32,934 bases of DNA. Source: Verrucomicrobiota bacterium (GTDB taxonomy: Bacteria > Verrucomicrobiota > Verrucomicrobiia > Chthoniobacterales > SZAS-18). Position numbers and translations under genes: made by a program. Below the pieces are notes generated by a model. It did not search any database and was not told the DNA's origin. It saw only the letters and a list, made by a program, of their open reading frames with translations. Where the stretch lies: contig JANXRG010000020.1 in the NCBI GenBank assembly GCA_025353105.1, positions 1 to 32,934 of the forward strand, in the 5' to 3' direction. Below, piece by piece: positions 7,053 through 21,643 of the stretch (positions within the stretch are counted from its first letter, which is position 1; each line of letters begins with the position of its first letter).

Positions 7053-7298
7053 TTATCCGTCATTGCCAATGGCCTGGGTCGGACACAAATCGAGTGCTTC
7101 CTGCGCCGCCTCTTCCTGGCCCGGTCCGGACGGCTGGACCGCGAAGTGGACTTTGGTCTCGTCGGCGTTGTACTGCATCATGGGATGGGCCGTCGCCGGC
7201 CCCGCGATGTCGATGCACGTATGGCAGGGCGTGCACGTGTCATCGACGTACCAACGGCCGGGCGCGTTGTCCGGATTACGAAGTGAATTGTCGGCCAT
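7053..7298 (-). CDS. Small [4Fe-4S] ferredoxin-like protein
   Basis: The 81-residue protein carries CTPCHTC near residues 22-28 and CPTQAIG near the C-terminus, the ligand pattern of single-cluster bacterial ferredoxins. The position that in two-cluster ferredoxins would hold a fourth clustered cysteine is instead IDIAGP, so only one [4Fe-4S] cluster is expected. No signal peptide is seen, which places it in the cytoplasm as an electron carrier. It lies 115 bp downstream of the decaheme cytochrome gene. In that gap there is a TTGTCA box at 7371-7376 (minus strand) with only a poor -10 (TTGTAA, 17 bp away), and an AGGAGG at 7340-7345 too far from the ATG to be its ribosome site. It could therefore be co-transcribed or have its own weak promoter. 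Confidence 0.85.
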   Translation of the reverse strand: MADNSLRNPDNAPGRWYVDDTCTPCHTCIDIAGPATAHPMMQYNADETKVHFAVQPSGPGQEEAAQEALDLCPTQAIGNDG

Positions 7299-7413: not shown

Positions 7414-10400
7414 TCAGGGCTTCTTCGTCGGCAGAATCGTGGGAGCCGGGATGGCCGGTGGGGGTTCCGACTTTCCAGTGGCTGGCGCCGCGGGCTTTTC
7501 GCCCGGTTTCGCCTTCAACATCAGCAGGCGGTCGACCGCGGTGCCCTGGATCAATCCGCCGGTCTCCGGACCCGGGGGCGGGATCGGTGTCGGGGCGGGA
7601 CTGGCGGCCGGCAGGGGCTCGTCCGGGCGGGTTGGGTCGAGCAGACGGAGCATGCGATTGACGGAATCAGGCTGCAGGAACTCGTTCTTCTGCGCGGGCG
7701 TCTGCGGCGGTGCGTTCGGATCCCGCGGCTTGCCTGCCTCATAGAAATCTCGCGGCGTCGCGAGCGTTCCACCGAACGCTGTGAACAGGTCGCCCACGAT
7801 CAGGCCGTCGCGCGGTTGCGCCACCTTCACGTCGTCGACGCGGTAGTACGGACCGGTCCGCGTGGCCGCCTGGTTGGCGGTAAAGACATCATTGTGGTGC
7901 CGCAGGAACATCAGCGACTCGGTCGACGTGAATGGCCGGGAGCCGCGCCGGCCGAACACGACGGTTTGGCCGCCGGTTTCATCCACCACGCGATCGCGAT
8001 CCACGCCGCGCGAAACGGCAAGCGCCTCGCCATGATGCGTGTGGAAAGTGGCAATCAAACGCGGGTTCGGTGCCGGCGTGAAGCCCGCGACTCCGGGAAC
8101 GGTGTCGGGTGTCATCAGCGAAAGGACGTGCATGCCGTTGTGTCCGTCGGCCACGACGGCGTAGATCGACGCGGCAACGGTGCCGAGCTGGACGGCGCGC
8201 GTGTCATTCATGTGGCCGTCCGCGTTGTATTTCATGAACAAGCGCGGCTTGGTCGGATGCTCGACATCAATAATCGCCAGGCCTTCCTTGCCGTTCGCGA
8301 CGTAGGCATAGGTGCGGCCAACATAGAAACGTTGGGCGTCGCGCAATCGGACGGTCGAGCGCGGAATCGGGATGGGCCGGTTGGGATTCGAGACGTCGAA
8401 CACCTTGAAGCCCTCCTCGTCCGTCACGAACGCGTAGTGAAATTGAACGGAAACGGCGCGCGGGTTGCGCAGGAAAGAACCGCGATATTGCCCCACGAGT
8501 CGCGGGTGCAGCGGATCGGCGACGTCCACCACGAACAATCCCTGCGGACTCGTGATGTAGAGTTTCTCACCCGCGGCCCAGAGATGCGTGGCGCCGGTCA
8601 GCAAGCCTGCGCCGCCGCCGCCCTTCGGGTCGCCCGCGCCCGGATTGTAGGTCGCATCCTTGTAGAGGAAATTGTTGTCAGGATTGCCGTCGAAGAGGGT
8701 GAGCGTGTTGATGACGACCAATCCCTCGACCGTGTCGGTGCCGTAGACATACGCGTAGAACGGGCGGATCGGCTGCTCCTCATTCACGGCACGGCCGTCG
8801 ACCATCACCGGCTTGCGTCCGGCATCGATGGCGAGCGTACTCGGCAGCGCCATGGCCGTGGCAACTCCTTTGGTCTTCACGCGCATGTTCTGGCCGAGGG
8901 GCGAATTCGGACTCGCGACGATGCGCTCCGAGAAGCCCTTGTTGTCGATGTTCGCGATGTCAAAGACCTCGAAGCCGTGATGACCGTTGGCGGTGTAGAG
9001 GAATTCGTTGCGGACGGTCAGGTCGCGCACGTCGCCATGGTGCTCGTAGGCCTCCTTGTATTCGCGGTGATCCTTCTCCACGAAGTTCCGGAAATTATCT
9101 GGGTACGCGAGTTCGTGGAAGCGACTGCCGAGGGGCGCCTGAGGCTCCTCGCGCTCAGTCCACGGAATGCCCCACAGTCCGCCCTCGCCGGCACCGAGCC
9201 AGAGATAGCGGCTGAGAAAATTGACCGTGCCGGTGCCGTAGCCCAGCAACGAAGCCATCCACGCGTTGTTACTGCCGTCCCTCGCCATGTGGCAATCGGT
9301 GCAGCCCTTGGTCGTGCCGACGGTGCTCGTGGTGTGCGCGAAGTGCGGGTTGAAGGCCTGGCCGCTGTAGCCCTCCCAAGCGATGGTCTGCTGCTGCGAG
9401 TAAACCCATTCGCGCGCCGCATTCTGCGAACTTACAATGACCTGGCTCGACGCGCGGAGGACCGCCAGCTTGTGTTTCTTCACCGTGCCGTCGATCCCGA
9501 GCATGAACACGTCGTCGCGCACGGTCTCAGGATTGTAGCTGACAAAATTCCGGCTCGTCGTGCCCTCGAACTTGTTTTGCGGGGATTTGACGTTCGCACG
9601 CATCGGGAGGTGGCAGCCGAAGCAACTGGTCACCCACGAACTGTGACAGATCTGGCATTCAATCTTCTCGTTGTTGTGCGCGATTTTTTGCATCCGCTCC
9701 TGCCCATTGCCGGGCACGTCGCCCCAGGTCGTACCGTCGCGATAAATCGTCTTGGAGTAACGCGACTTCGGATTGTAATGCGGGCGCACGGGACCGTATT
9801 TCGGGTCGTTGTCGTACGGCGCAGTGTATGTCGGATCGAGCGAATCCATGGTCTGCGGAATTTCCCAGCGGATATTCGGATCCATCGCGGAGAATTGATA
9901 GAGCACATTCCGGACAATGCCCTTTTCGTCGATCTTGTTTTCCCACTTGAAGCGCGGGCCCCAGGAGGTGACCGAACCGTTCAGATCCGCCGTGCCACCC
10001 GTGTTGCTCGTGATGAGCGTGGGCCGCTTGTCAACCGTGCCGTGGCAATCGATGCATGCGATGCTCGTCGCGTTGCGCGCCTCGACGTAGAGGGTGCCGT
10101 CGCCGTGGACGTCCTGCAGGAAGTGGCAGTCGACGCACTGCATGCCGTTCGCGAGGTGGATGTCCTTCAGGTGAACCGCCTTCTGCCACTTGTTCGGATC
10201 GTCAAAGCGAATCGGGTTGTCCTTCGCGTCGAGCAGGACGCCCTTCTTGTCCTTCTTGAAAATCGCGCGGAAGACCCAGCCGGCACGATGATAATCGGCA
10301 AACTGCGTGTGCTTGAGCTTGGGATTCAACTCAGAAACCTTTTCCAGAAATTCGAGGTCGCCCCAAAGCCCGCGCGCGGCCGCCAACTCGGGATTCTCCC

Positions 10401-11937
10401 GCACCGCGCCCGCGAGATCTTCGTCGGTCGGGTTCTTCTGTTGCTTCGGATACATGTGCTCGCCATCGCTCTCCTGGTCCCACCACGTGTAGCCGAGGTA
10501 CGGATTGACGAAGAGGTTGCCCTGGTGGCCGTGGCAGGTCATGCACTGCGAGGACGGAATCGTGCGCGTGAACTGGTGCGAGATGGGATGGGCACGCTCA
10601 TTCTTGCGGATGGACTGGTCGCCGGTGAACGAAAGGGCCTGGTTGCCGAATCTGCCGTACCAGCCGGAGTTCGTCGGGGAACGATCGTTCGCGTAAATCG
10701 TGTGGCACGCGGTGCAGCCGGAAGCGCGATAATCGCCCGGATGATCATTCGTCCCGGGGAACGGCAGCAATGGATCATTGAGACGGGTCTTGTGCGCGCC
10801 GAGCGCGGTCGGGTCGATGCGCAGCAGCGTGCCGAATCCGCGATTCGAGAGCGCGCGCTCGGGTTTGCCCGGTGCGGCATTGGGTTCGGGCGAGCCGAGC
10901 TCGGGCGGCTTCACGCCGCCTTTTTCGAAAGTACGGAAGACGTTTCCGGGCTGCGTGATGTTGTAGCGCGGCAGCGGGATGAGGAAAGGCACGACGCCTT
11001 TCGTGCGGGTCATCTCGGGCGTGACCTTCGTAAAGCTGTTGATTTTCAGCGGCGCGCCGTCGCGGCCGTAGGACTGGCCGAAAATGTAGGTCTTGAGCGG
11101 GAAGCCGCCGTTGTTGTAAAGCGCGGCGCCCCAGAGGTGCGCGCCGTGGCTCATCAAATTGTGCGAGACATGATTGATGCTGTTCATATGGCAGAGCCCG
11201 CAGCCCTGCTCGACGACGCGGAGATCGCCGGGGTTCACAAAACGAATCCACTCCGGGTTCTCGTGGTTGTAGATCTGCACGTTTACCGGTGGGTTCGCCG
11301 CCGTGCGCCAAAATTCCGGATACGTCGGCTTCGGGTGCGCTTCCTCCACCGCCAGCCCGCGCTTCGGATTGCCGCCGTGACAGTCGGTGCAGCCCAGCAC
11401 GACGAAAGGCGACTTGTGCATCGGTTCCACGCCTTGGTGGCACTCCATGCAACCCGCGCTCTTCGCATTCGCTTCGGCCTGCGTTTGATCGATCCAGTTG
11501 CGCGCGGGCAATCCGGCTCGGCTCGGCCTCGTTAGATCATTTGGCACCGAAATCGCCGGCCCCCATCCTGAGCCGGTCTTGTCGCCGGTCTCGAGTTTCA
11601 CGATTGTCGGGATTTGCGGTATCGGCGGCGCATCCTCACCGCCGGGTTGCACCCGAATCGTCGGTGGCGCGATAATCTGCGGCGGCAGCGGCATGGCCTC
11701 GGGAATCGGCGTCGGCGTCGCGGCGGGCGGCTGGACCTTGGGCGTAATCGAGGGCGTCTGCACCGGCCGCGTGCCGGTCGGACCAATGATGACCGGCGCC
11801 GGGAGGTCGGGCATCGGCCGACGCGTGTCCTGTTGGGAAAACAGTTCGTAAACCGCCCCGGCTCCAAGCCCGAGCGCCAGCAGGGCGCCCAACGCGAGGC
11901 GCTGCCAGGTACGGTGGAGATGTCGGACGATCGGCAT
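7414..11937 (-). CDS. Decaheme c-type cytochrome fused to an LVIVD-repeat propeller
   Basis: The 1507-residue protein has an N-terminal hydrophobic segment (about 14-31) that could be a signal peptide or anchor, a proline-rich linker (41-115), ten CXXCH heme-binding motifs with cysteines starting at residues 163, 183, 246, 408, 465, 601, 628, 761, 772 and 879, and then a region from about 970 with repeats such as FEVFDIANIDN, FVVDVADPLHPRLVG, FKVFDVSNPNRP and LAIIDVEHPTKP. These are LVIVD-type beta-propeller blades. The tail is proline/alanine-rich. There is no lipobox cysteine. Ten hemes imply long-range electron transfer outside the cytoplasm. The gene starts 5 bp after the stop of an outer-membrane barrel gene, so the two are almost certainly translated from one mRNA. 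An electron conduit partner role is inferred; the electron donor and acceptor are unknown. Confidence 0.93.
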   Translation of the reverse strand: MPIVRHLHRTWQRLALGALLALGLGAGAVYELFSQQDTRRPMPDLPAPVIIGPTGTRPVQTPSITPKVQPPAATPTPIPEAMPLPPQIIAPPTIRVQPGGEDAPPIPQIPTIVKLETGDKTGSGWGPAISVPNDLTRPSRAGLPARNWIDQTQAEANAKSAGCMECHQGVEPMHKSPFVVLGCTDCHGGNPKRGLAVEEAHPKPTYPEFWRTAANPPVNVQIYNHENPEWIRFVNPGDLRVVEQGCGLCHMNSINHVSHNLMSHGAHLWGAALYNNGGFPLKTYIFGQSYGRDGAPLKINSFTKVTPEMTRTKGVVPFLIPLPRYNITQPGNVFRTFEKGGVKPPELGSPEPNAAPGKPERALSNRGFGTLLRIDPTALGAHKTRLNDPLLPFPGTNDHPGDYRASGCTACHTIYANDRSPTNSGWYGRFGNQALSFTGDQSIRKNERAHPISHQFTRTIPSSQCMTCHGHQGNLFVNPYLGYTWWDQESDGEHMYPKQQKNPTDEDLAGAVRENPELAAARGLWGDLEFLEKVSELNPKLKHTQFADYHRAGWVFRAIFKKDKKGVLLDAKDNPIRFDDPNKWQKAVHLKDIHLANGMQCVDCHFLQDVHGDGTLYVEARNATSIACIDCHGTVDKRPTLITSNTGGTADLNGSVTSWGPRFKWENKIDEKGIVRNVLYQFSAMDPNIRWEIPQTMDSLDPTYTAPYDNDPKYGPVRPHYNPKSRYSKTIYRDGTTWGDVPGNGQERMQKIAHNNEKIECQICHSSWVTSCFGCHLPMRANVKSPQNKFEGTTSRNFVSYNPETVRDDVFMLGIDGTVKKHKLAVLRASSQVIVSSQNAAREWVYSQQQTIAWEGYSGQAFNPHFAHTTSTVGTTKGCTDCHMARDGSNNAWMASLLGYGTGTVNFLSRYLWLGAGEGGLWGIPWTEREEPQAPLGSRFHELAYPDNFRNFVEKDHREYKEAYEHHGDVRDLTVRNEFLYTANGHHGFEVFDIANIDNKGFSERIVASPNSPLGQNMRVKTKGVATAMALPSTLAIDAGRKPVMVDGRAVNEEQPIRPFYAYVYGTDTVEGLVVINTLTLFDGNPDNNFLYKDATYNPGAGDPKGGGGAGLLTGATHLWAAGEKLYITSPQGLFVVDVADPLHPRLVGQYRGSFLRNPRAVSVQFHYAFVTDEEGFKVFDVSNPNRPIPIPRSTVRLRDAQRFYVGRTYAYVANGKEGLAIIDVEHPTKPRLFMKYNADGHMNDTRAVQLGTVAASIYAVVADGHNGMHVLSLMTPDTVPGVAGFTPAPNPRLIATFHTHHGEALAVSRGVDRDRVVDETGGQTVVFGRRGSRPFTSTESLMFLRHHNDVFTANQAATRTGPYYRVDDVKVAQPRDGLIVGDLFTAFGGTLATPRDFYEAGKPRDPNAPPQTPAQKNEFLQPDSVNRMLRLLDPTRPDEPLPAASPAPTPIPPPGPETGGLIQGTAVDRLLMLKAKPGEKPAAPATGKSEPPPAIPAPTILPTKKP

Positions 11938-11942
11938 GGCGG

Positions 11943-14135
11943 CTAGTACGTAAGCGTGACGGCGAAAATGCCGCTGTAATTCCAGTTGCTGTCCGTCTTC
12001 CCGGGATTCGCCAGGTTGGTGTACCCGGGAATCGGCCGCGTGTTTTCACGGTTGATGTCCCGATATCCTGGACCCGGGATAAAGGCGCCCATGCCGGCGG
12101 TGATGACAATATTCTGGGTCAGCGTCGGCCGGTAAAAGAATCCCAGGCTGATGTCGTAACCGAAGTTGCGATCGACAGAGGGCACAAACAGCGCGGTCTT
12201 CAACGGGTCAGTGGTGACAAACCGCACCCAGTTCGCGTTGAACTGAGCCTTGAGCCGCGGCGTCACATCCACGTCGAGCCCGAGACCGACGATCAGCGTG
12301 CCGGGATTCACGAAGTTCGACTGCCCCTGAAACTTGCTCGAGCGCAGGCTGTTGAAAATGCTGTTCCCCGTCTTCGTCGTGATGCCCGTGTTGCCGAGGC
12401 CCAAGCCCTGGCGCGCATAGTAACTGAACGGATTGCCAATGAAGGTCGGCGAATCGAGGATCGAATCGAAGCCCGTGGCTCGCCGGTCTGTCGTCTTGTT
12501 GTCACCCGAGGCGTAAAGAAACGAGAATTTCGGACGGATGTAGTCTTTGTCGTACGACAATTCCAATGCGAACATCTGCGCGTTGATGTCGACGGCCCGG
12601 CCGGCGAGGTTGTTCAACGAGTCGCGCCCGAGGGCCCAATAGAAAGCGTGCGTGATGTTCAACCAGCCGATGTGGCCGTCGCCCGTCCACCCGAGGTAGT
12701 AGGCCTGAACCTGGTGAGGCACCACGGTGCCGACCGGCGCCGGACGCACGATGGAGCCGTTGCGATCGTAGGCGACGCCGCCGTGATCAATATTGCCGAT
12801 GATGCTCCACTGCGCGGTGTAACCGTGCCAGATGAAGTCCTGCTTGTAGAGATTCAAGACGAAGACGTCCTGGTTGCGGGCGTCGAACGTATTCAGGTTG
12901 GAGAACGTGTCTTTCTCGCGCATCGAGAAGTACACGAGGTTGTACTGATAGGTGTTGTTCTTGTAGTTGCCGAAGATGCGGATGCCGAGGTTCGTGTCGT
13001 TGAAGATGAAGCCCCGGAAGTCCGCATTGAAGGGCTGCAGACCGAGCTTGGAGCTAAGAAAATCGTAGTTGAGGCTGAGATCCTTGAGGTGGAACTCGAG
13101 GAACGCTTCCTGGAGGTTCACCGAGTTGCGGAATCGCCGCGTGTAACTCGTCCCGGCCAGGTCAACGGAGGTCGGGATGAAATACCGGCCAAAAAACAAC
13201 CCGATGTCGCCCGGATTGCGGATGACGCCCGGGGGCAACGGCGGCGGAATGAAATACCCGCTCGAGCCCGATCCGCGCGGATCCGGCTTCACGACGTTTT
13301 CCTTCAATTCCACGTAGTTCACGTTGAAGACCGGCGTGATGTGCAGCGCCCATTCCACCGGCTTGAACGCCGTCTCGCCCTTGAACAGCTCGAACGTGAC
13401 CGAAACATTGTTGGAGATGATGTAGCCATCGCCGCGGCCGAAAAACTCTGAACCAAACGGCCTCGCCGAGCTCACCCCGCTGGGCGTCGCCACGCGACGC
13501 GCCTCGATCTCGAATTGATCGATAACGGTGATGTTCAGGAAAATATCCTCCCCGATGATCGGGAAATCGCCCTTCAACAGACTCGGCTTGTACGGATCAA
13601 ACGTGGAGTAAATGTGGTAGCTCCCGTACGGCTGCTCGAGGCGCGAATTGCCGTAACGCGGAAAGGCCGCCGTGCCCAGACCGCTCCCCGGCAGGCGCCA
13701 GCGATCGGTCAACGGCGTGAAACCCGGCAGCAGGCCGATGCCCTGGTTCGTCTGGCGGTATTCGGGGTTTTCAAGTTTGGAGCCGAGACGCCGGTCCTGC
13801 ATTTCAAGCGTCCGGCGGGGCAGGCTCAACGAACGCGGAGGCAAATCATCGGCAAATCCCGGCGCCTTCGTCGGCACCGCTGGCTCAAACAGGCTCGGCA
13901 ACGGGACGACCCGCGGGCTCGTCGATTGAATCGGCGCCTGTCGCCCGCCCGGGTCCGGATTGAACTGCGTCGGCGCGATGGGCTCGACCGCATCGTAGTT
14001 CTGCGGCTTGGCGGGTTTCTCGGCTTCCTCGGCCCGCAGTCCCGACGGCCCCAGCGTGGCGCACGCGAGCAAAGCAAGACCTTTCAACCACCGCAAACGC
14101 GGGAGATCGAGAGTCGGTCGGTGTGAGCAAGCCAT
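11943..14135 (-). CDS. Outer-membrane beta-barrel (porin-like) protein paired with the decaheme cytochrome
   Basis: The chosen ATG at 14135 gives 730 residues beginning with a signal peptide (hydrophobic core LKGLALLACATLGPSGLRA, cleavage near residue 35). The frame is open to 14315, but the upstream part lacks signal-peptide character. A proline-rich stretch of about 130 residues follows. The rest alternates polar and aromatic/hydrophobic residues with many Tyr, Phe and Asn, and ends IFAVTLTY with a terminal aromatic residue, all typical of outer-membrane barrels. No CXXCH is present. I do not recognise a named family. The 5-bp spacing to the decaheme cytochrome suggests it forms the outer-membrane sheath in which the cytochrome, or part of it, sits, by analogy with MtrB-type and Geobacter porin-cytochrome complexes. 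This role is inference. Confidence 0.85.
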   Translation of the reverse strand: MACSHRPTLDLPRLRWLKGLALLACATLGPSGLRAEEAEKPAKPQNYDAVEPIAPTQFNPDPGGRQAPIQSTSPRVVPLPSLFEPAVPTKAPGFADDLPPRSLSLPRRTLEMQDRRLGSKLENPEYRQTNQGIGLLPGFTPLTDRWRLPGSGLGTAAFPRYGNSRLEQPYGSYHIYSTFDPYKPSLLKGDFPIIGEDIFLNITVIDQFEIEARRVATPSGVSSARPFGSEFFGRGDGYIISNNVSVTFELFKGETAFKPVEWALHITPVFNVNYVELKENVVKPDPRGSGSSGYFIPPPLPPGVIRNPGDIGLFFGRYFIPTSVDLAGTSYTRRFRNSVNLQEAFLEFHLKDLSLNYDFLSSKLGLQPFNADFRGFIFNDTNLGIRIFGNYKNNTYQYNLVYFSMREKDTFSNLNTFDARNQDVFVLNLYKQDFIWHGYTAQWSIIGNIDHGGVAYDRNGSIVRPAPVGTVVPHQVQAYYLGWTGDGHIGWLNITHAFYWALGRDSLNNLAGRAVDINAQMFALELSYDKDYIRPKFSFLYASGDNKTTDRRATGFDSILDSPTFIGNPFSYYARQGLGLGNTGITTKTGNSIFNSLRSSKFQGQSNFVNPGTLIVGLGLDVDVTPRLKAQFNANWVRFVTTDPLKTALFVPSVDRNFGYDISLGFFYRPTLTQNIVITAGMGAFIPGPGYRDINRENTRPIPGYTNLANPGKTDSNWNYSGIFAVTLTY

Positions 14136-15032: not shown

Positions 15033-15944
15033 TCATTTGCCAAAGTGATCCCAGACGATTTTTGACGCCTCGCGCAGGAGAACATGGCCGGCGTTGTCGG
15101 ATTGGTAGCGCTCGTCGCGCTGGTTCTTCGTGATAAGACAAAAAACGTAATCGCCGCCGGGCGCGTGCACCAGCATCACCTCCGAGCGGGAACGATCGAC
15201 CGACCCCTGCTTCGACGCGACCTGCACCGTCGCGGGAATCGCGGACAGCGCCTCCGCATCGTAAAAGGAACGCTCAAGCATCCGGTGCGCCCGATCACCG
15301 GTCGCCGCCGAGGTCAGCTCGCCGCGCGTCAGGCGCACCATCAGCTCCGCCATCTCGCGTGGCGTGGTCTGGCCCCAGCCGAGCTTGGTGCGGTCCGCCT
15401 CGCGGCCGACCGTACGGGAGTTCACGCGAGTTTCCTTGAAACCCTTTTCCGCGAGCCACTCGTTGATCGCCGACCCGCCACCGGCCAGATCCTGCAGCCA
15501 AAGCGAGGCGTTGTTGTCGCTAAAGGAGAGCATCAAGGCGACCACGTGATCCAGGGGCAGCTTCTCGCCGGGCCGAAATTTCGCGAGCAGGTCGTCTCCC
15601 GCCTCATAGTTGATCCGCGCGGGATCGTAGGTCAGCTCGTCGTCCCACTTCAATCGTCCCGCGTCGATCTCCGCGCCGACCTTCGCGAGAATCGCCACCT
15701 TCACCAGGCTGGCGGTCGGGAACCGTTCATCGGCGCGCCACGCGACCTCGCGGCCATCCCGGAGATGACGGACGAAAAAACCAGCGTCGCCGTCGAACCC
15801 TTCCGCCAGGGTCTGCAGTTGTTTCTGGAGGACCGAATCGAAGCGGGCGGCGGGGGTCGATTCCGCCGCCGGAAAGGCGGGAAGAGGCATGATCGTCAAC
15901 GCGAGGCAAAGAAGGATCCGGCTGTTCGGCATGGGGACCCGCAT
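15033..15944 (-). CDS. Class A beta-lactamase-fold serine hydrolase, exported
   Basis: The 303-residue protein has a signal peptide (about 1-26, ending PLPAFPA) and the serine-hydrolase motifs of the beta-lactamase/PBP fold: SxxK as Ser79-Leu-Val-Lys82, SDN as Ser142-Asp143-Asn144, and KQG at 245-247 in place of KTG. The omega loop between SDN and the TTPREMAELM segment does not show the class A ExxLN signature; the nearest acid is Glu182 in VGREADR. Without that general base, true penicillinase activity is doubtful, and a peptidase or esterase role is possible. A second ATG at codon 5 (15932) would leave a good signal peptide too. Its neighbours give no resistance context. Confidence 0.85.
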   Translation of the reverse strand: MRVPMPNSRILLCLALTIMPLPAFPAAESTPAARFDSVLQKQLQTLAEGFDGDAGFFVRHLRDGREVAWRADERFPTASLVKVAILAKVGAEIDAGRLKWDDELTYDPARINYEAGDDLLAKFRPGEKLPLDHVVALMLSFSDNNASLWLQDLAGGGSAINEWLAEKGFKETRVNSRTVGREADRTKLGWGQTTPREMAELMVRLTRGELTSAATGDRAHRMLERSFYDAEALSAIPATVQVASKQGSVDRSRSEVMLVHAPGGDYVFCLITKNQRDERYQSDNAGHVLLREASKIVWDHFGK

Positions 15945-16058
15945 GGTGGAGCGTAGCAGGCGCCGGGAGGCGAGTCACGCCGGGCCGCGATTCGGCCATG
16001 AATGTTCTTGCCATGGCCGCGCGCTCCCCGCTATCCGTTGGGAGATTTATTTCGTCCC

Positions 16059-17732
16059 ATGCGTTTGAAGTTTCTTCCCCTCCTTGCCGCCACGTTCACG
16101 GCGATGCTTCCGCTGCGCGCGGAAGCGCAGGCCCAGCTCGCGCTGACGGACGTTCAAGTCATCCTCTCGCAGTCCGTCAGCCGCGCGGTCGAAATTTCAC
16201 CGCAAGCGATCATCGCGATTGTCGACAACAACGGCATTGTCTTGGCGGTTTGGTCAGTGAGCGGAGCGCCCCCCAGTCTCAATCTTGTCCTCGCCGTGGG
16301 CGCAGCCGTCCGGGAGGCCGGAACCGCCGCATTTCTCAGCAGCGATCAAAGCGCCCTTAGTTCGCGAACCGCCCAATTCATCATCCAGCAAAATTTCCCG
16401 CCCGGGATCAAGAATCAAGGGCCGGGTCCGCTCGTCGGCGTCGCTTTCTCGAACCTATTCCTGTCGACGGATTTCGTGAACGTTTTCCGCTCGGATGTGA
16501 ATCGCTTCAAAGGCAAGGATGCCGTGACGCCTTTCAACGGATCGACGCCAACTGGCCTCGGATTTGGGGTGCCCAACACCCGCCTCGGCGCGCGCTGTTC
16601 AAGCGCCGCTCTCTACAAGAATGGGACGATGGTAGGCGGCATCGGGGTCTACCCGATTCCCAATCCCACGGTGGCGCAGGAGGTCATGGACGCCTTCGCG
16701 GTGGAATTGGCCAATCAAGTGGCCGGGCAGAACAACGAGGAAGCAGTCGCCGTGGCGGGCACCATCGGTTTTCAGTCGTCGCCGGCCATCACCGCCAACA
16801 ATATCCTGATCAATGGCATTCGTTTCCCGTACGTGCTGGCGACGCCGCAAATCAATCGACTGATTCCATTCGCCACCCTGCCGGGAAACGCGGTGGTCAT
16901 CCCGCCGCTGGGTGGCTTGCCCGCTTTTGATTACACCCCGATGGGGGCGCCCCCGCAGCCGGTCCTGACCACCGAAACCTTCAACGGCCAGACTGGCAGT
17001 TACTACTATCCGATCATGGCCGATCCAAATCCCGGCTTGATCAATGGCGTGGCGCGGTTGTCCGCCGCGGAAGTTCACAACATCGTCGCCAATGGTGCCA
17101 TTCGTGCCTCCACGACGCGCGGCGCCATCCGCTTTCCCGTCGGCGTGCCGATGCAGTGTTGGGTCACGGTTGTAGGCAACCCCAATGTCCCGGGCCAGCC
17201 GCCGCCCGTGCTGGCCGCGTTCCGCACGCCAAACGCGCCGATGTTCAGCTTCGACGTGGCGGTGCAGAAAGGCCGGACCGCGCTCTTCTTTTCCAGCAGC
17301 CAGGTAGCCCAATCCTCGCGCACGGTCGGCTTCCTCGCCCAAGATTACTATCCGCCCGGGCTCAATGCTAATCCCCCGACGATTTACGGACCCGAACAGA
17401 GCCTGAACGGTGTTCCAAGCTTTAACGGCCTGCAGTTGCAATTTTCGTTTCCGGCACCGGCGGGCTACGCACCAGACGGCAATCTCCCAAACGGCATCAC
17501 AGTTTTCCCCGGCGGGTTTCCGCTTTATCGCATTCGGGGTGACGGCGTCCCGATCTTAGTCGGCGGGGTGGGGATCTCAGGCGACGGCGTCGACCAAGAC
17601 GACATCGTCGGCATCTCCGCCACCGTGGGCTATCAGGCGCCGCTCAACATTCGCGCGGATTCCTTCACGCTGGGCGGCGCCCGGCTCCCCTACGCGAAGA
17701 TTCCGCGCAATCCGGATACCGCAAACGATTAG
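16059..17732 (+). CDS. Exported protein with two GlcG/HbpS-like (DUF336) domains
   Basis: From the ATG at 16059, preceded by GGGAG about 14 bp upstream, the protein is 557 residues with a signal peptide (MRLKFLPLLAATFTAMLPLRAEA). Two related halves follow. Each starts with a short helix (LTDVQVILSQSVSRAVE; LSAAEVHNIVANGAIRAS), has a strand/variable segment, then FLSSDQSALSSRTAQF or FFSSSQVAQSSRTVGF, and ends with a glycine-rich GGIGVYP or GGVGISGDG. This is the order of elements in GlcG/HbpS domains, some of which bind heme or sense redox state. The frame also runs from 16002, but the signal peptide fixes the later start. It lies 111 bp upstream of resB, so a heme-related role is plausible but unproven. 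Confidence 0.75.
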   Translation: MRLKFLPLLAATFTAMLPLRAEAQAQLALTDVQVILSQSVSRAVEISPQAIIAIVDNNGIVLAVWSVSGAPPSLNLVLAVGAAVREAGTAAFLSSDQSALSSRTAQFIIQQNFPPGIKNQGPGPLVGVAFSNLFLSTDFVNVFRSDVNRFKGKDAVTPFNGSTPTGLGFGVPNTRLGARCSSAALYKNGTMVGGIGVYPIPNPTVAQEVMDAFAVELANQVAGQNNEEAVAVAGTIGFQSSPAITANNILINGIRFPYVLATPQINRLIPFATLPGNAVVIPPLGGLPAFDYTPMGAPPQPVLTTETFNGQTGSYYYPIMADPNPGLINGVARLSAAEVHNIVANGAIRASTTRGAIRFPVGVPMQCWVTVVGNPNVPGQPPPVLAAFRTPNAPMFSFDVAVQKGRTALFFSSSQVAQSSRTVGFLAQDYYPPGLNANPPTIYGPEQSLNGVPSFNGLQLQFSFPAPAGYAPDGNLPNGITVFPGGFPLYRIRGDGVPILVGGVGISGDGVDQDDIVGISATVGYQAPLNIRADSFTLGGARLPYAKIPRNPDTAND

Positions 17733-17843: not shown

Positions 17844-19841
17844 ATGCCGCCTGTTTCCCCGGCCCCCGCGCCCCGTACCGCCCCGCCCCACCCGGCGGCT
17901 GCGACCCGTTCCCTGCCCGAACGTGTCGTTCACAAGCTCTTCAAATTTTTCTCGTCCGTTCGACTCGCGGTCATTCTGATCTCGGTCCTGGTCATCGGCA
18001 GCGTCGCAGGCACGCTCTATGAAACCACCTTCGACGCGAAGGTCGCCCGCGCGTACGTCTACGGCGCGTGGTGGTTCAATTTCTGGCTGTTTTTTCTTGG
18101 CCTGAACCTCCTTTGCGCTGCGCTCTCGCGCTGGCCGTGGAAACGTCACCACACGGGCTTCCTCATCACCCACCTCGGCATCATCACGCTGCTTATCGGG
18201 TCGTACATCGGACGGACCTGGGGCATCGAGGGCACGATGACGCTCTTCAAGGATCGGCCACCGAACAACCAGCTCGTCATCGACGAAAAAATCCTCCACC
18301 TCCAGCAGGACGGCGCTCGCTCGCTCGCCTGGCCCGTTGAGATCATCGGCCGCAAGCCGACTGCGCAACGCCCGTGGAAACTGGGCATGACGACCAGTGG
18401 CTACAAGATTGAGCTCGTGGATTACGCGCCTTCGCTTTCGGCCTCGCTCGAACCCAAGCCCTCGGACGACCCCGCCGCCAAGCCCGCCGCGCACATCAAG
18501 CTTGTGTCGGCGCGTCTCGGTCAGACGATGGATCGTTGGCTCCTCGCCGACGAGAACCCCGAGAACAACGCGCTCGACCTCGGCATGGCCGCCGTGCGCC
18601 TGCGCCCGCTGGCGAAATCCACGGACGCCGCCGGCAGCATGGCCCCGCCGGCCGCCGCCGACGCGGCCAAGCTTCCGCCGGGCACGGTGAACGAAGCCAT
18701 CATGGTTTTCGCGCAGAAGCCCGGAGAGCAAATCACGAAGCCGGTTGCCGGCACCGCGCCGAGCGGCGTGAAACTCGCGCTCACGGCTGACATGAACCAG
18801 CGCCAGCTCGCCGTGACGTGGCGCGGCGCGACCTACGAATTTGATCCCGTGGCCGACAAGGGTCGCGATGAGGAACTCGGCAGTGGCAGCGGCCTCAAGA
18901 TGCGGATCGAAAATTTCTGGCCGGACTTCGAAGTCAAGGATGGCAAGCCCGCGACGGCGTCCGACGTCCCGCGCAATCCCGCCGTGCTCGTCACCATCTT
19001 CGGCCAGCTGGCCCCGGCGGGGGAACCTGATTCTCCGCTTGCCGCGACTGAACCGGCTCCGGTCGCCGGCAACAACCAAGCGCTGGTGTTTGTGGCGCCG
19101 GATGGCGCGATGACGTACGAATTGCGCGCGTCGGCGACCGCCGCACCGGGGAAGGGCGTGCTCAAGCCCGGCGAGTCGATCAACACCGGCTGGGCCGATT
19201 GGACCCTCACTGCGATCGAATCGATTCCGCGCGCGGTTGAGTTCATGAAGTTCGCGCCCGCGCCTGAGAAAAAAGGACCGAAGGCCGGGATGGCGACGGT
19301 GACCGAAGGCGTGCGCGTGCGTCTCAGCAAGGGCGCCGAGTCGCATGAGGAATGGGTTCCGGGCGGATGGCGGGTGAGCCTGCCGACCCAGCCGCGGCCG
19401 GTGCTTTTCACCTACGGCTACCGCCTCGAGCCGCTACCGATCGGGCTCGAGCTGATGAATTTTGAGGTGGAGCGCAACGAAGGCAACGACTCGCCCGCCG
19501 GATTCAAGAGCACGGTGCGGGTCACGGATCGCACGGGGCAAAGCGCGACGGGGTTCGCGTTCATGAACAACCCCTTCAATTTTCCGGCGGGGATTCCGTA
19601 CACGTTCACCGGTTTCACCTACAAGGTCTCGCAGGCCTCGTGGAATCCGGAGAATCTTAACCAGAGCTCGGTGCAAATTCTGCGCGATCCGGGCTGGTCC
19701 TTGAAATGGATCGGCTCGCTCCTCATCTGCCTCGGGATTTTCACGCTGTTCTATCTCCGTCCCGCGCCGAAATTCGCCACCGCAGCCGCGCCCAAGCCCG
19801 ACGATGCCCGCGCGCGCAAGCCGAAAAAGAGCGGGCGCTGA
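17844..19841 (+). CDS. resB: ResB/Ccs1-like cytochrome c biogenesis protein
   Basis: ResB works with CcsA/ResC in system II cytochrome c maturation, delivering heme to CXXCH sites outside the inner membrane. The 665-residue protein has three N-terminal membrane segments: VRLAVILISVLVIGSVAGTL, WWFNFWLFFLGLNLLCAAL and TGFLITHLGIITLLIGSYIG. A large extracytoplasmic domain of about 480 residues follows, then a last membrane segment IGSLLICLGIFTLFYL near the C-terminus. This is the ResB layout. Length is somewhat greater than the usual 400-600 because of alanine/proline-rich inserts in the soluble domain. ccsA follows 32 bp later, so the two form an operon. Confidence 0.88.
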   Translation: MPPVSPAPAPRTAPPHPAAATRSLPERVVHKLFKFFSSVRLAVILISVLVIGSVAGTLYETTFDAKVARAYVYGAWWFNFWLFFLGLNLLCAALSRWPWKRHHTGFLITHLGIITLLIGSYIGRTWGIEGTMTLFKDRPPNNQLVIDEKILHLQQDGARSLAWPVEIIGRKPTAQRPWKLGMTTSGYKIELVDYAPSLSASLEPKPSDDPAAKPAAHIKLVSARLGQTMDRWLLADENPENNALDLGMAAVRLRPLAKSTDAAGSMAPPAAADAAKLPPGTVNEAIMVFAQKPGEQITKPVAGTAPSGVKLALTADMNQRQLAVTWRGATYEFDPVADKGRDEELGSGSGLKMRIENFWPDFEVKDGKPATASDVPRNPAVLVTIFGQLAPAGEPDSPLAATEPAPVAGNNQALVFVAPDGAMTYELRASATAAPGKGVLKPGESINTGWADWTLTAIESIPRAVEFMKFAPAPEKKGPKAGMATVTEGVRVRLSKGAESHEEWVPGGWRVSLPTQPRPVLFTYGYRLEPLPIGLELMNFEVERNEGNDSPAGFKSTVRVTDRTGQSATGFAFMNNPFNFPAGIPYTFTGFTYKVSQASWNPENLNQSSVQILRDPGWSLKWIGSLLICLGIFTLFYLRPAPKFATAAAPKPDDARARKPKKSGR

Positions 19842-19873
19842 TTTTTCAAATTCACCAAGCACAGCCTGATCTT

Positions 19874-21643
19874 ATGACCCGTCGATTCCTCCCATCTTCA
19901 TTTGGTCAATTTGGAAAATTTAGAAATTTGGTGATTCTTCTCACCACTTTCCTTGCGGCCTCGCGCCTGCTTCCCGCCGCCGATCTTCTGCCGGGCGACT
20001 TCCAAGAATTCGGCAAGCTCGCCGTGCAGGACAACGGCCGCCGCAAGCCGACCGATACGTTCGCGCGCGAGTCGCTCTTGCGCATCACGGGGCGTTCGAC
20101 CTACGAGGCGGCCGACGGCCGCGGGTGGACCCCAAACGAATTTGTTCTTTCGATGCTGCTCGAGACGCACGATTGGAAAAAGGAACCGATGATCCTGGTC
20201 GGTCACCGTCCGCTCGTCGAAAAACTCGGACTCGATCCGGCGCAAAAGCGCTACTCATTTGAGCAACTCTCCAAGTTACCCGAGCTCGAAAAAATGGCGA
20301 AGGCCGTGCATCAGCTCCGCGCCACCGAGGAAAAACCGGAGCTCGATCGCATGCAGCAGGAAGTCGAAAGCGTCTCCGGCCGCATCGGCCTCTTCATGTC
20401 GATCGCGCAGGGCTCCACCATGCTCGTCGTTCCGCCCAAGCTGAGCGCCAAGGAGCCATGGGTCATCCCGCCGCAATTCGGGGTGTACTACAAGGAGAGT
20501 GACTTCACCAACGCGACGGAAAAGCTTCAGGCGATGGCGAAGGGTTATCAATCCGGTGACGGCTACAACTTTAGCCTGGGCGCGCGCAATCTTCGTCTTG
20601 CGCTCCGCGAGATGTCGCCCGCGATTTATCCCTCTGAGAATTCTCTCCGCCTCGAGTATTTCTACAACCACCTCGAGGCGTTTTCGCGCGCGGCGTGGCT
20701 GTATCTCATTGGCTTCATCGGACTCGGTGTCTATGCGGCGCGGCCGGGCGCCCCAAAGGCGTTCAAGTGGATTGGCCTCGCCGCCGCGCTCGGCGGCCTC
20801 GTGCTCCACGGCACCGGCATCACCCTGCGTTGCTTCATCGCCGGGCGCCCGCCCGTGACAAACATGTTTGAGTCGGTCGTGTGGGTCGCGTTCCTCGCGA
20901 TCCTCTTCGGCTTCGTCTTCTTCCTGCGCTATCGCGCCGCGCTCTATCTGCTCGCGGCCCTGCCGGTCGGCGCCCTGTGCCTCGCCCTGGTGCTCAACAT
21001 CCCGGTCGCGATGCCGCCCAATATCGATCCGCTTGTGCCGGTGTTGCGTGATAATTTCTGGCTGACGATTCACGTGCTCAGCATCACCGCGAGCTACGGC
21101 GCGTTCACCCTCGCCATGGCATTTGGCCACATCGTGCTCTTCCGCTACGCCGTCTGGCCGGAGGCGACCCGCAAGGACGCCACGCTCCATTTCTGGAATT
21201 ACCGCATCATCCAGCTCGGCACGCTGCTGCTCGCGGCGGGGACGATCCTCGGCGGCGTGTGGGCGAACTATTCCTGGGGCCGTTTCTGGGGCTGGGACCC
21301 GAAGGAAACCTGGGCACTCATCGCGCTGCTTTGTTACATCGTCGCGCTCCACGGCCGCATCGCCGGCTGGTGGAATCATTTCGGTCTCGCGATGGCCAGC
21401 TGCGTGTGTTTTCTCGCTATCCTGATGGCCTGGTACGGGGTCAATTTCGTGCTCGGCAAGGGCCTTCACAGCTACGGCTTCGGCATCGGCGGCGAAGGCT
21501 ACGTCGCGAGCTTCCTCGTCCTCGACGGACTCTTCCTTGCCTTGGCAGCCTACCGTCATCTCGCGTCCGAGCGCGCGCGGCTGGCCCGACGGTCCGGAGA
21601 CGTTGCAGCCGCCAAACCGCTGGACGATCCCACGACGGCTTGA
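19874..21643 (+). CDS. ccsA: CcsA/ResC-like cytochrome c heme lyase subunit
   Basis: CcsA carries heme across the inner membrane and, with ResB, attaches it to apocytochromes. The heme-handling WWD motif WGRFWGWDPKETW is present (around 21275-21313). Multiple hydrophobic helices fill the C-terminal two-thirds, including the conserved PPVTNMFESVVW segment. The N-terminal 250 residues form an extracytoplasmic region after a signal-like start. The ATG at 19874 was chosen because the preceding sequence to 19706 overlaps resB and has no conserved character. Residues 10-23 (FGQFGKFRNLVILL) are encoded by an A/T-rich dispersed repeat, so part of the signal sequence derives from it. GTG at 19931 is an alternative start. 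Length is 589 residues from ATG. Confidence 0.92.
   Translation: MTRRFLPSSFGQFGKFRNLVILLTTFLAASRLLPAADLLPGDFQEFGKLAVQDNGRRKPTDTFARESLLRITGRSTYEAADGRGWTPNEFVLSMLLETHDWKKEPMILVGHRPLVEKLGLDPAQKRYSFEQLSKLPELEKMAKAVHQLRATEEKPELDRMQQEVESVSGRIGLFMSIAQGSTMLVVPPKLSAKEPWVIPPQFGVYYKESDFTNATEKLQAMAKGYQSGDGYNFSLGARNLRLALREMSPAIYPSENSLRLEYFYNHLEAFSRAAWLYLIGFIGLGVYAARPGAPKAFKWIGLAAALGGLVLHGTGITLRCFIAGRPPVTNMFESVVWVAFLAILFGFVFFLRYRAALYLLAALPVGALCLALVLNIPVAMPPNIDPLVPVLRDNFWLTIHVLSITASYGAFTLAMAFGHIVLFRYAVWPEATRKDATLHFWNYRIIQLGTLLLAAGTILGGVWANYSWGRFWGWDPKETWALIALLCYIVALHGRIAGWWNHFGLAMASCVCFLAILMAWYGVNFVLGKGLHSYGFGIGGEGYVASFLVLDGLFLALAAYRHLASERARLARRSGDVAAAKPLDDPTTA
19899..19939 (+). repeat. A/T-rich dispersed repeat, copy 2, inside the ccsA 5' coding region
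   Basis: The tract contains ATTTGGTCAATTTGG, then AAAATTTAGAAATTTGGTG, matching the core seen at 24079, 31000 and 31068. It is preceded by CCCATCTTCA, similar to the CATCTCA and CATCCCA prefixes of the copies at 24079 and 31068. It lies in frame within the first 25 codons of ccsA. Confidence 0.75.

Follow-up and report, generated by a model that had tools for sequence, protein, structure and literature searches.

Introduction

Several described systems combine an outer-membrane barrel with a multiheme cytochrome. In MtrAB, PioAB and MtoAB, the gene for the barrel adjoins the gene for an exported decaheme cytochrome, and the MtrB barrel has 26 strands. The Omb/Oma/Omc and Ext conduits of Geobacter likewise encode a barrel and a multiheme cytochrome in one operon. 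ExtI of G. sulfurreducens is a porin-like protein that is tied to a cytochrome cluster without being a proven wire, and it has been reported to be unique to Geobacteraceae (PMC5877670). Within Verrucomicrobiota, He et al. 2017 proposed a novel porin-multiheme complex with an eight-heme cytochrome, with strain IMCC26134 among its carriers (PMC5615132). Genetic work in Desulfovibrio ferrophilus cautions against taking multiheme genes by themselves as proof of extracellular electron transfer (PMC9769857).

Here, we analyze a barrel gene and a decaheme cytochrome gene in a 32,934-nucleotide stretch of verrucomicrobial DNA, which we refer to as the window. The pair shares its adjoining genes with MtrAB, PioAB and MtoAB, its single operon with the Geobacter conduits, and its phylum, underlying idea and host IMCC26134 with the 2017 complex; its barrel resembles ExtI in being a porin-like protein associated with a cytochrome. 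A search of the literature outside subscription papers found no published description of this pair.

Results

A barrel and a decaheme cytochrome form an obligate pair

Both genes lie on the minus strand, and the cytochrome start is 5 bp past the stop codon of the barrel gene. The barrel ORF begins with an ATG at 14135, encodes an N-terminal signal peptide and ends in ...FAVTLTY; the C-terminal residue is aromatic (Y, F or W) in 63/63 barrel homologues. The source genome has one copy of the cytochrome gene, whose product has a Sec-type signal peptide and ten CXXCH motifs at residues 163-879. An initial annotation made from the DNA alone had described exactly this arrangement of an outer-membrane barrel gene followed by an exported ten-heme cytochrome. 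Homology of both genes ruled out chance or antisense ORFs, and a 1239-aa plus-strand ORF at 7816-11535 was discarded as an antisense shadow of the cytochrome.

Table 1. Features of the barrel-cytochrome locus, in window coordinates.
Feature	Position	Strand	Description or basis
Outer-membrane beta-barrel	11943..14135	-	730 aa, signal peptide, C-terminal Tyr, AlphaFold2 model
Pre-barrel segment of barrel protein, residues 131-197	13545..13745	-	conserved, unfolded when modelled alone
Exported decaheme c-type cytochrome, C-terminal beta-propeller	7414..11937	-	1507 aa
Heme-binding region, residues 163-883, ten CXXCH	9289..11451	-	motif count, homologue alignment
7-bladed LVIVD beta-propeller, about residues 907-1315	7993..9219	-	PF08309, fold matches
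4Fe-4S ferredoxin, next gene downstream of cytochrome	7053..7298	-	81 aa, PF13370 3e-10
Exported HbpS/GlcG-like protein	16002..17732	+	PF03928 1e-13
ResB-like System II cytochrome c maturation protein	17844..19841	+	PF05140 2e-11
CcsA-like cytochrome c assembly protein	19706..21643	+	PF01578 7e-33; true start probably further in

A pattern scan of 84,980 species genomes yielded 101 relatives, of which the best 80 were retained as a lower bound. Nearly all of these best 80 are from Verrucomicrobiota, and two are from Planctomycetota. The named records that matched best are Verrucomicrobiota metagenome genomes, and because contigs recorded as Spartobacteria are among the relatives assigned to the same order, the host most likely belongs to Chthoniobacterales. 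Of the 62 loci whose upstream sequence was long enough to judge, 57 have the barrel gene directly upstream of the cytochrome gene; for three loci (L042, L081 and L092), the barrel is not missing but located elsewhere in the genome. Among 38 related genomes, ten have the cytochrome, and these ten and no others have the barrel. A naive estimate places the chance of this identical distribution at 2e-9, a figure that kinship between the genomes raises. Three genomes of the sample (G010, G019 and G026) carry both genes unlinked. That the two genes stay partners even where they are unlinked is our strongest evidence that the barrel and the cytochrome work together. The mirror-tree correlation of the two proteins was 0.88, which we did not count as evidence because shared ancestry explains the correlation. 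From the 38-genome sample and the scan (best 80 of 101 loci), on which the distribution argument rests, we conclude that the barrel and the decaheme cytochrome are an obligate, phylum-wide pair. Computation established the pair, its conservation and its co-occurrence, and confirmed the observation made in the initial annotation.

The barrel is modelled with 18 strands and an AlgE-type fold

The AlphaFold2 model, built with 54 homologues, has 18 strands with a pLDDT of about 90 or more across most of the barrel; the initial annotation had looked to a barrel of 20 or more strands, which the model contradicts. The best structural relative is AlgE (Foldseek E 8e-16; Z 29.4, rmsd 2.9 over 360 residues), and Occ/OprD channels, which share the 18-stranded fold, are also among the top fold matches (AlgE and Occ at Z about 25-29, about 13% identity). 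An MtrB chain was not among the fold matches listed, which proves nothing alone, and none of 55 barrel homologues matched the Pfam family MtrB_PioB at E up to 1. The C-alpha radius of the 18-strand barrel is about 16.5 Å versus about 24 Å for a 26-strand barrel, and in the model the lumen looks too tight for an MtrA-like plug or heme wire.

The fold bears on the main rival explanation, in which the barrel acts as a selective channel for a solute, the cytochrome serves in the periplasm as the oxidoreductase for the entering compound, or as electron donor to one, and no electrons cross the outer membrane. The 18-stranded AlgE/Occ fold speaks for such a channel, as do the 2/55 barrel homologues that match Alginate_exp (PF13372; best E 1.2e-5) and the precedent of ExtI, a porin-like outer-membrane protein that belongs to a cytochrome cluster and without which selenite and tellurite reduction is impaired (PMC5877670). 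The window barrel itself has no PF13372 match and no recognised polysaccharide biosynthesis gene beside it, and the absence of any fixed substrate-specific neighbor gene argues against this explanation. In contrast to AlgE and Occ (OprD), our barrel also has an obligate multiheme partner and a longer conserved N-terminal segment. The 67 residues before the barrel have a mean column conservation of 0.66, equal to that of the barrel, but most of this stretch is modelled with low pLDDT in isolation; this points to a protein partner and again argues against a simple channel. We consider this stretch a candidate partner-binding or plug segment. In the barrel, conservation is 0.74 at inward-facing and 0.59 at outward-facing positions. 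Together with the conserved segment, this pattern points to a partner-binding segment and a specific lumen, and is compatible with either a heme partner or a solute.

The cytochrome is heme-sparse and ends in a beta-propeller

Each of the ten CXXCH motifs is kept in 70-71 of 71 aligned cytochrome homologues, nearly all of them from Verrucomicrobiota. The ten hemes are distributed over about 720 residues, or about one per 72 residues, and the cytochrome is heme-sparse, unlike a compact MtrA-type plug. It is also 4-5 times larger than MtrA and carries an LVIVD propeller (PF08309, 67 bits vs a cut-off of 20.2, E 9e-19) that matches 7-bladed propellers in fold (Z 25-29). The propeller, which like the barrel fold was established computationally, had been missed in the initial annotation. 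Profile searches found no catalytic domain in the cytochrome, and it has no MtrA-family match. We assigned no fold to the heme region because its model is of low confidence (pLDDT mostly under 70), and PDB sequence matches in this region were dismissed as local CXXCH similarity only. The signal peptide is without a lipobox; lipobox-like sequences occur in 2/78 homologues, both doubtful.

These results cut both ways for the solute channel explanation. The signal peptide, being periplasmic-looking and without a lipobox, is consistent with a periplasmic oxidoreductase, as is the weak, local likeness of the region around hemes 6-7 to octaheme nitrite reductase and NrfB, whereas known periplasmic terminal reductases resemble neither the propeller nor the heme-sparse region of 720 residues. 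Taken together with the barrel evidence, we regard a solute channel as a serious explanation, though an unlikely one.

Another way to read the cytochrome is as a terminal oxidoreductase of the outer surface that the barrel anchors or exports, while a different protein carries electrons across the membrane. Surface decahemes such as MtrC are less heme-dense than MtrA, and ten hemes over about 720 residues resemble the former, not the latter. Moreover, BtuG on BtuB (8blw and 8bmx among the fold matches) offers a precedent for a propeller on a barrel. The cytochrome is without a lipid anchor, however, and a search of limited sensitivity detected no second conduit of the octaheme-porin type in the source genome, where no relative of the porin from the IMCC26134 octaheme pair described below was found. 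Both points weaken this reading. We judge it to be quite improbable.

An inner-membrane decaheme cytochrome co-occurs with the pair

An inner-membrane-anchored decaheme cytochrome is found in the same ten of 38 genomes as the pair, plus a fragment in G006. The co-occurrence of barrel, cytochrome and inner-membrane decaheme fits an electron path from the inner to the outer membrane and supports such a route. In many relatives, the anchored decaheme is encoded with NAD(P)H-dependent flavo-iron-sulfur, cyclic-nucleotide-binding 4Fe-4S and membrane b-type-like proteins. Near the pair itself, 25/81 loci have some of the following: an NAD(P)H/FAD/2Fe-2S (FNR-like) protein, a cNMP-binding 4Fe-4S protein, a b-type-like membrane protein, the anchored decaheme with its N-terminal membrane helix and a c554-like multiheme protein. 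In the source genome, the anchored decaheme and c554-like genes are together on another contig. L139 and L093 1-5514 show the recurrent set of FNR-like, cNMP-binding plus 4Fe-4S, membrane b-type-like, anchored decaheme and c554-like genes, a set that resembles a module for moving electrons from NAD(P)H to the periplasm.

The ferredoxin gene downstream of the cytochrome has a homologue after the cytochrome in about 14 loci, some of them without an adjacent barrel; where the pair is split, this cytoplasmic-looking protein stays with the cytochrome and not with the barrel. An NHL-repeat propeller protein is encoded near, and usually directly after, the cytochrome at L059 (11774-13066) and in 17 other loci, and cytochrome clusters of Desulfovibrio ferrophilus also carry NHL proteins (PMC9769857). 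Upstream of the barrel gene on the same strand, the window encodes a class A beta-lactamase-like exported protein (15033-15944, minus strand; PF13354 E 2e-45). Between these two genes, from 14739 onward on the plus strand, is a cysteine-rich ORF of 47 codons with a signal-peptide-like start and terminal CC pairs, possibly a small exported metal-binding peptide.

Also upstream of the barrel, but on the other strand, is the HbpS/GlcG-like gene of the window; its homologues are divergently oriented near the barrel in 31 loci, and the gene still adjoins the barrel in two genomes with an unlinked pair (L168 and L169). The HbpS/GlcG-like protein may be a third component. The same association, retained where the pair is split, would also be expected if the pair were non-respiratory and the cytochrome sensed or stored redox equivalents, or heme or iron, with the HbpS-like neighbor. 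A non-respiratory role, which we consider very improbable, is at odds with the co-occurrence of the pair with the inner-membrane decaheme and with redox genes linked to NAD(P)H.

The pair differs from described conduits

The profile searches agree with the initial annotation that neither protein resembles MtrAB or Omb/Oma/Omc in sequence. Compared with MtrAB, PioAB and MtoAB, our barrel is 18-stranded, AlgE-like and outside the MtrB_PioB family, and we rejected membership in the MtrAB type on that family, on barrel size in the AlphaFold2 model (26 strands expected) and on the missing compact, MtrA-like heme wire. In contrast to Geobacter Omb/Oma/Omc, our pair has no outer-surface lipoprotein multiheme cytochrome in its operon, and the window encodes no separate surface cytochrome and has no third multiheme cytochrome gene next to the pair. 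ExtM (NF040943) gave a partial match of 94 bits against a cut-off of 800, and membership was likewise rejected.

In strain IMCC26134, our pair is located at 2.417-2.423 Mb. At about 2.59 Mb, the same genome encodes a barrel-like protein of 763 aa and, beside it, a protein of 269 aa that has eight heme motifs; this octaheme/porin pair has no sequence relation to ours. Matched by description and not by locus tags, the octaheme-porin cluster is likely the pair published by He et al. 2017, which has eight conserved hemes where ours has ten. Because IMCC26134 holds this unrelated pair besides ours, we rejected the identity of our pair with the 2017 complex. Our pair appears to be a second, undescribed verrucomicrobial type. 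The octaheme locus (L140 7423-12268) contains a NapC-like multiheme protein together with the octaheme cytochrome and the 763-aa barrel-like protein, and in another IMCC26134 protein (L135 8285-10546), HEAT and TPR repeats are fused to a region with eight CXXCH motifs.

Discussion

We propose that the barrel and the cytochrome make up a single redox complex of the outer membrane and that this complex exchanges electrons with the cell exterior, a reading to which we assign a probability of roughly 0.5. In this proposal, an 18-stranded AlgE/Occ-type barrel would partner an exported ten-heme cytochrome with a C-terminal propeller. The membrane-anchored decaheme cytochrome would bring electrons from the inner membrane into the periplasm, from where they would pass to the outer-membrane pair and be exchanged with something outside the cell. 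The barrel would be the point of passage through the outer membrane. Its lumen and unfolded N-terminal segment, both conserved, may bind the cytochrome or allow a portion of it to emerge at the surface, and the mouth of the barrel may be where the propeller docks. The physical complex, the direction of electron flow, the membrane crossing and the external partner are all elements that we infer.

We favor electron exchange because of the obligate pairing, the co-occurrence with the inner-membrane decaheme, the redox neighbors and the ten conserved hemes, and also because of the inward conservation of the barrel, the lack of a catalytic domain in the cytochrome and the nearby cytochrome c maturation genes. 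Counting against it are the 18 strands, the solute-channel relatives AlgE and Occ/OprD, the missing lipobox and the lack of a separate surface cytochrome in the window. The porin-cytochrome conduit put forward in the initial annotation therefore survives in part: the pair is real and conserved and co-occurs with an inner-membrane decaheme, whereas an 18-strand barrel, one heme per 72 residues and no third, surface lipoprotein cytochrome do not fit it. A conduit role for the pair is plausible but unproven. More tentatively, and with some doubt, we suggest that the pair could represent a new trans-outer-membrane conduit architecture in Verrucomicrobiota, with a narrow 18-stranded AlgE-type barrel, a heme-sparse decaheme, a barrel-docked propeller and a feed from an inner-membrane decaheme.

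Soils, peat and lakes are rich in Verrucomicrobiota, yet little is known of the electron acceptors that these bacteria use under anaerobic conditions. Many of them carry this barrel together with the large ten-heme protein, and the two probably move electrons at the outer membrane. The co-occurring barrel, propeller-cytochrome and inner-membrane decaheme make electron exchange in this phylum directly testable, and the barrel-cytochrome pair is present in IMCC26134, a strain with a complete genome. If it is true that a narrow barrel passes electrons, this would change the current view, in which conduits depend on a compact heme wire enclosed by a very wide barrel.
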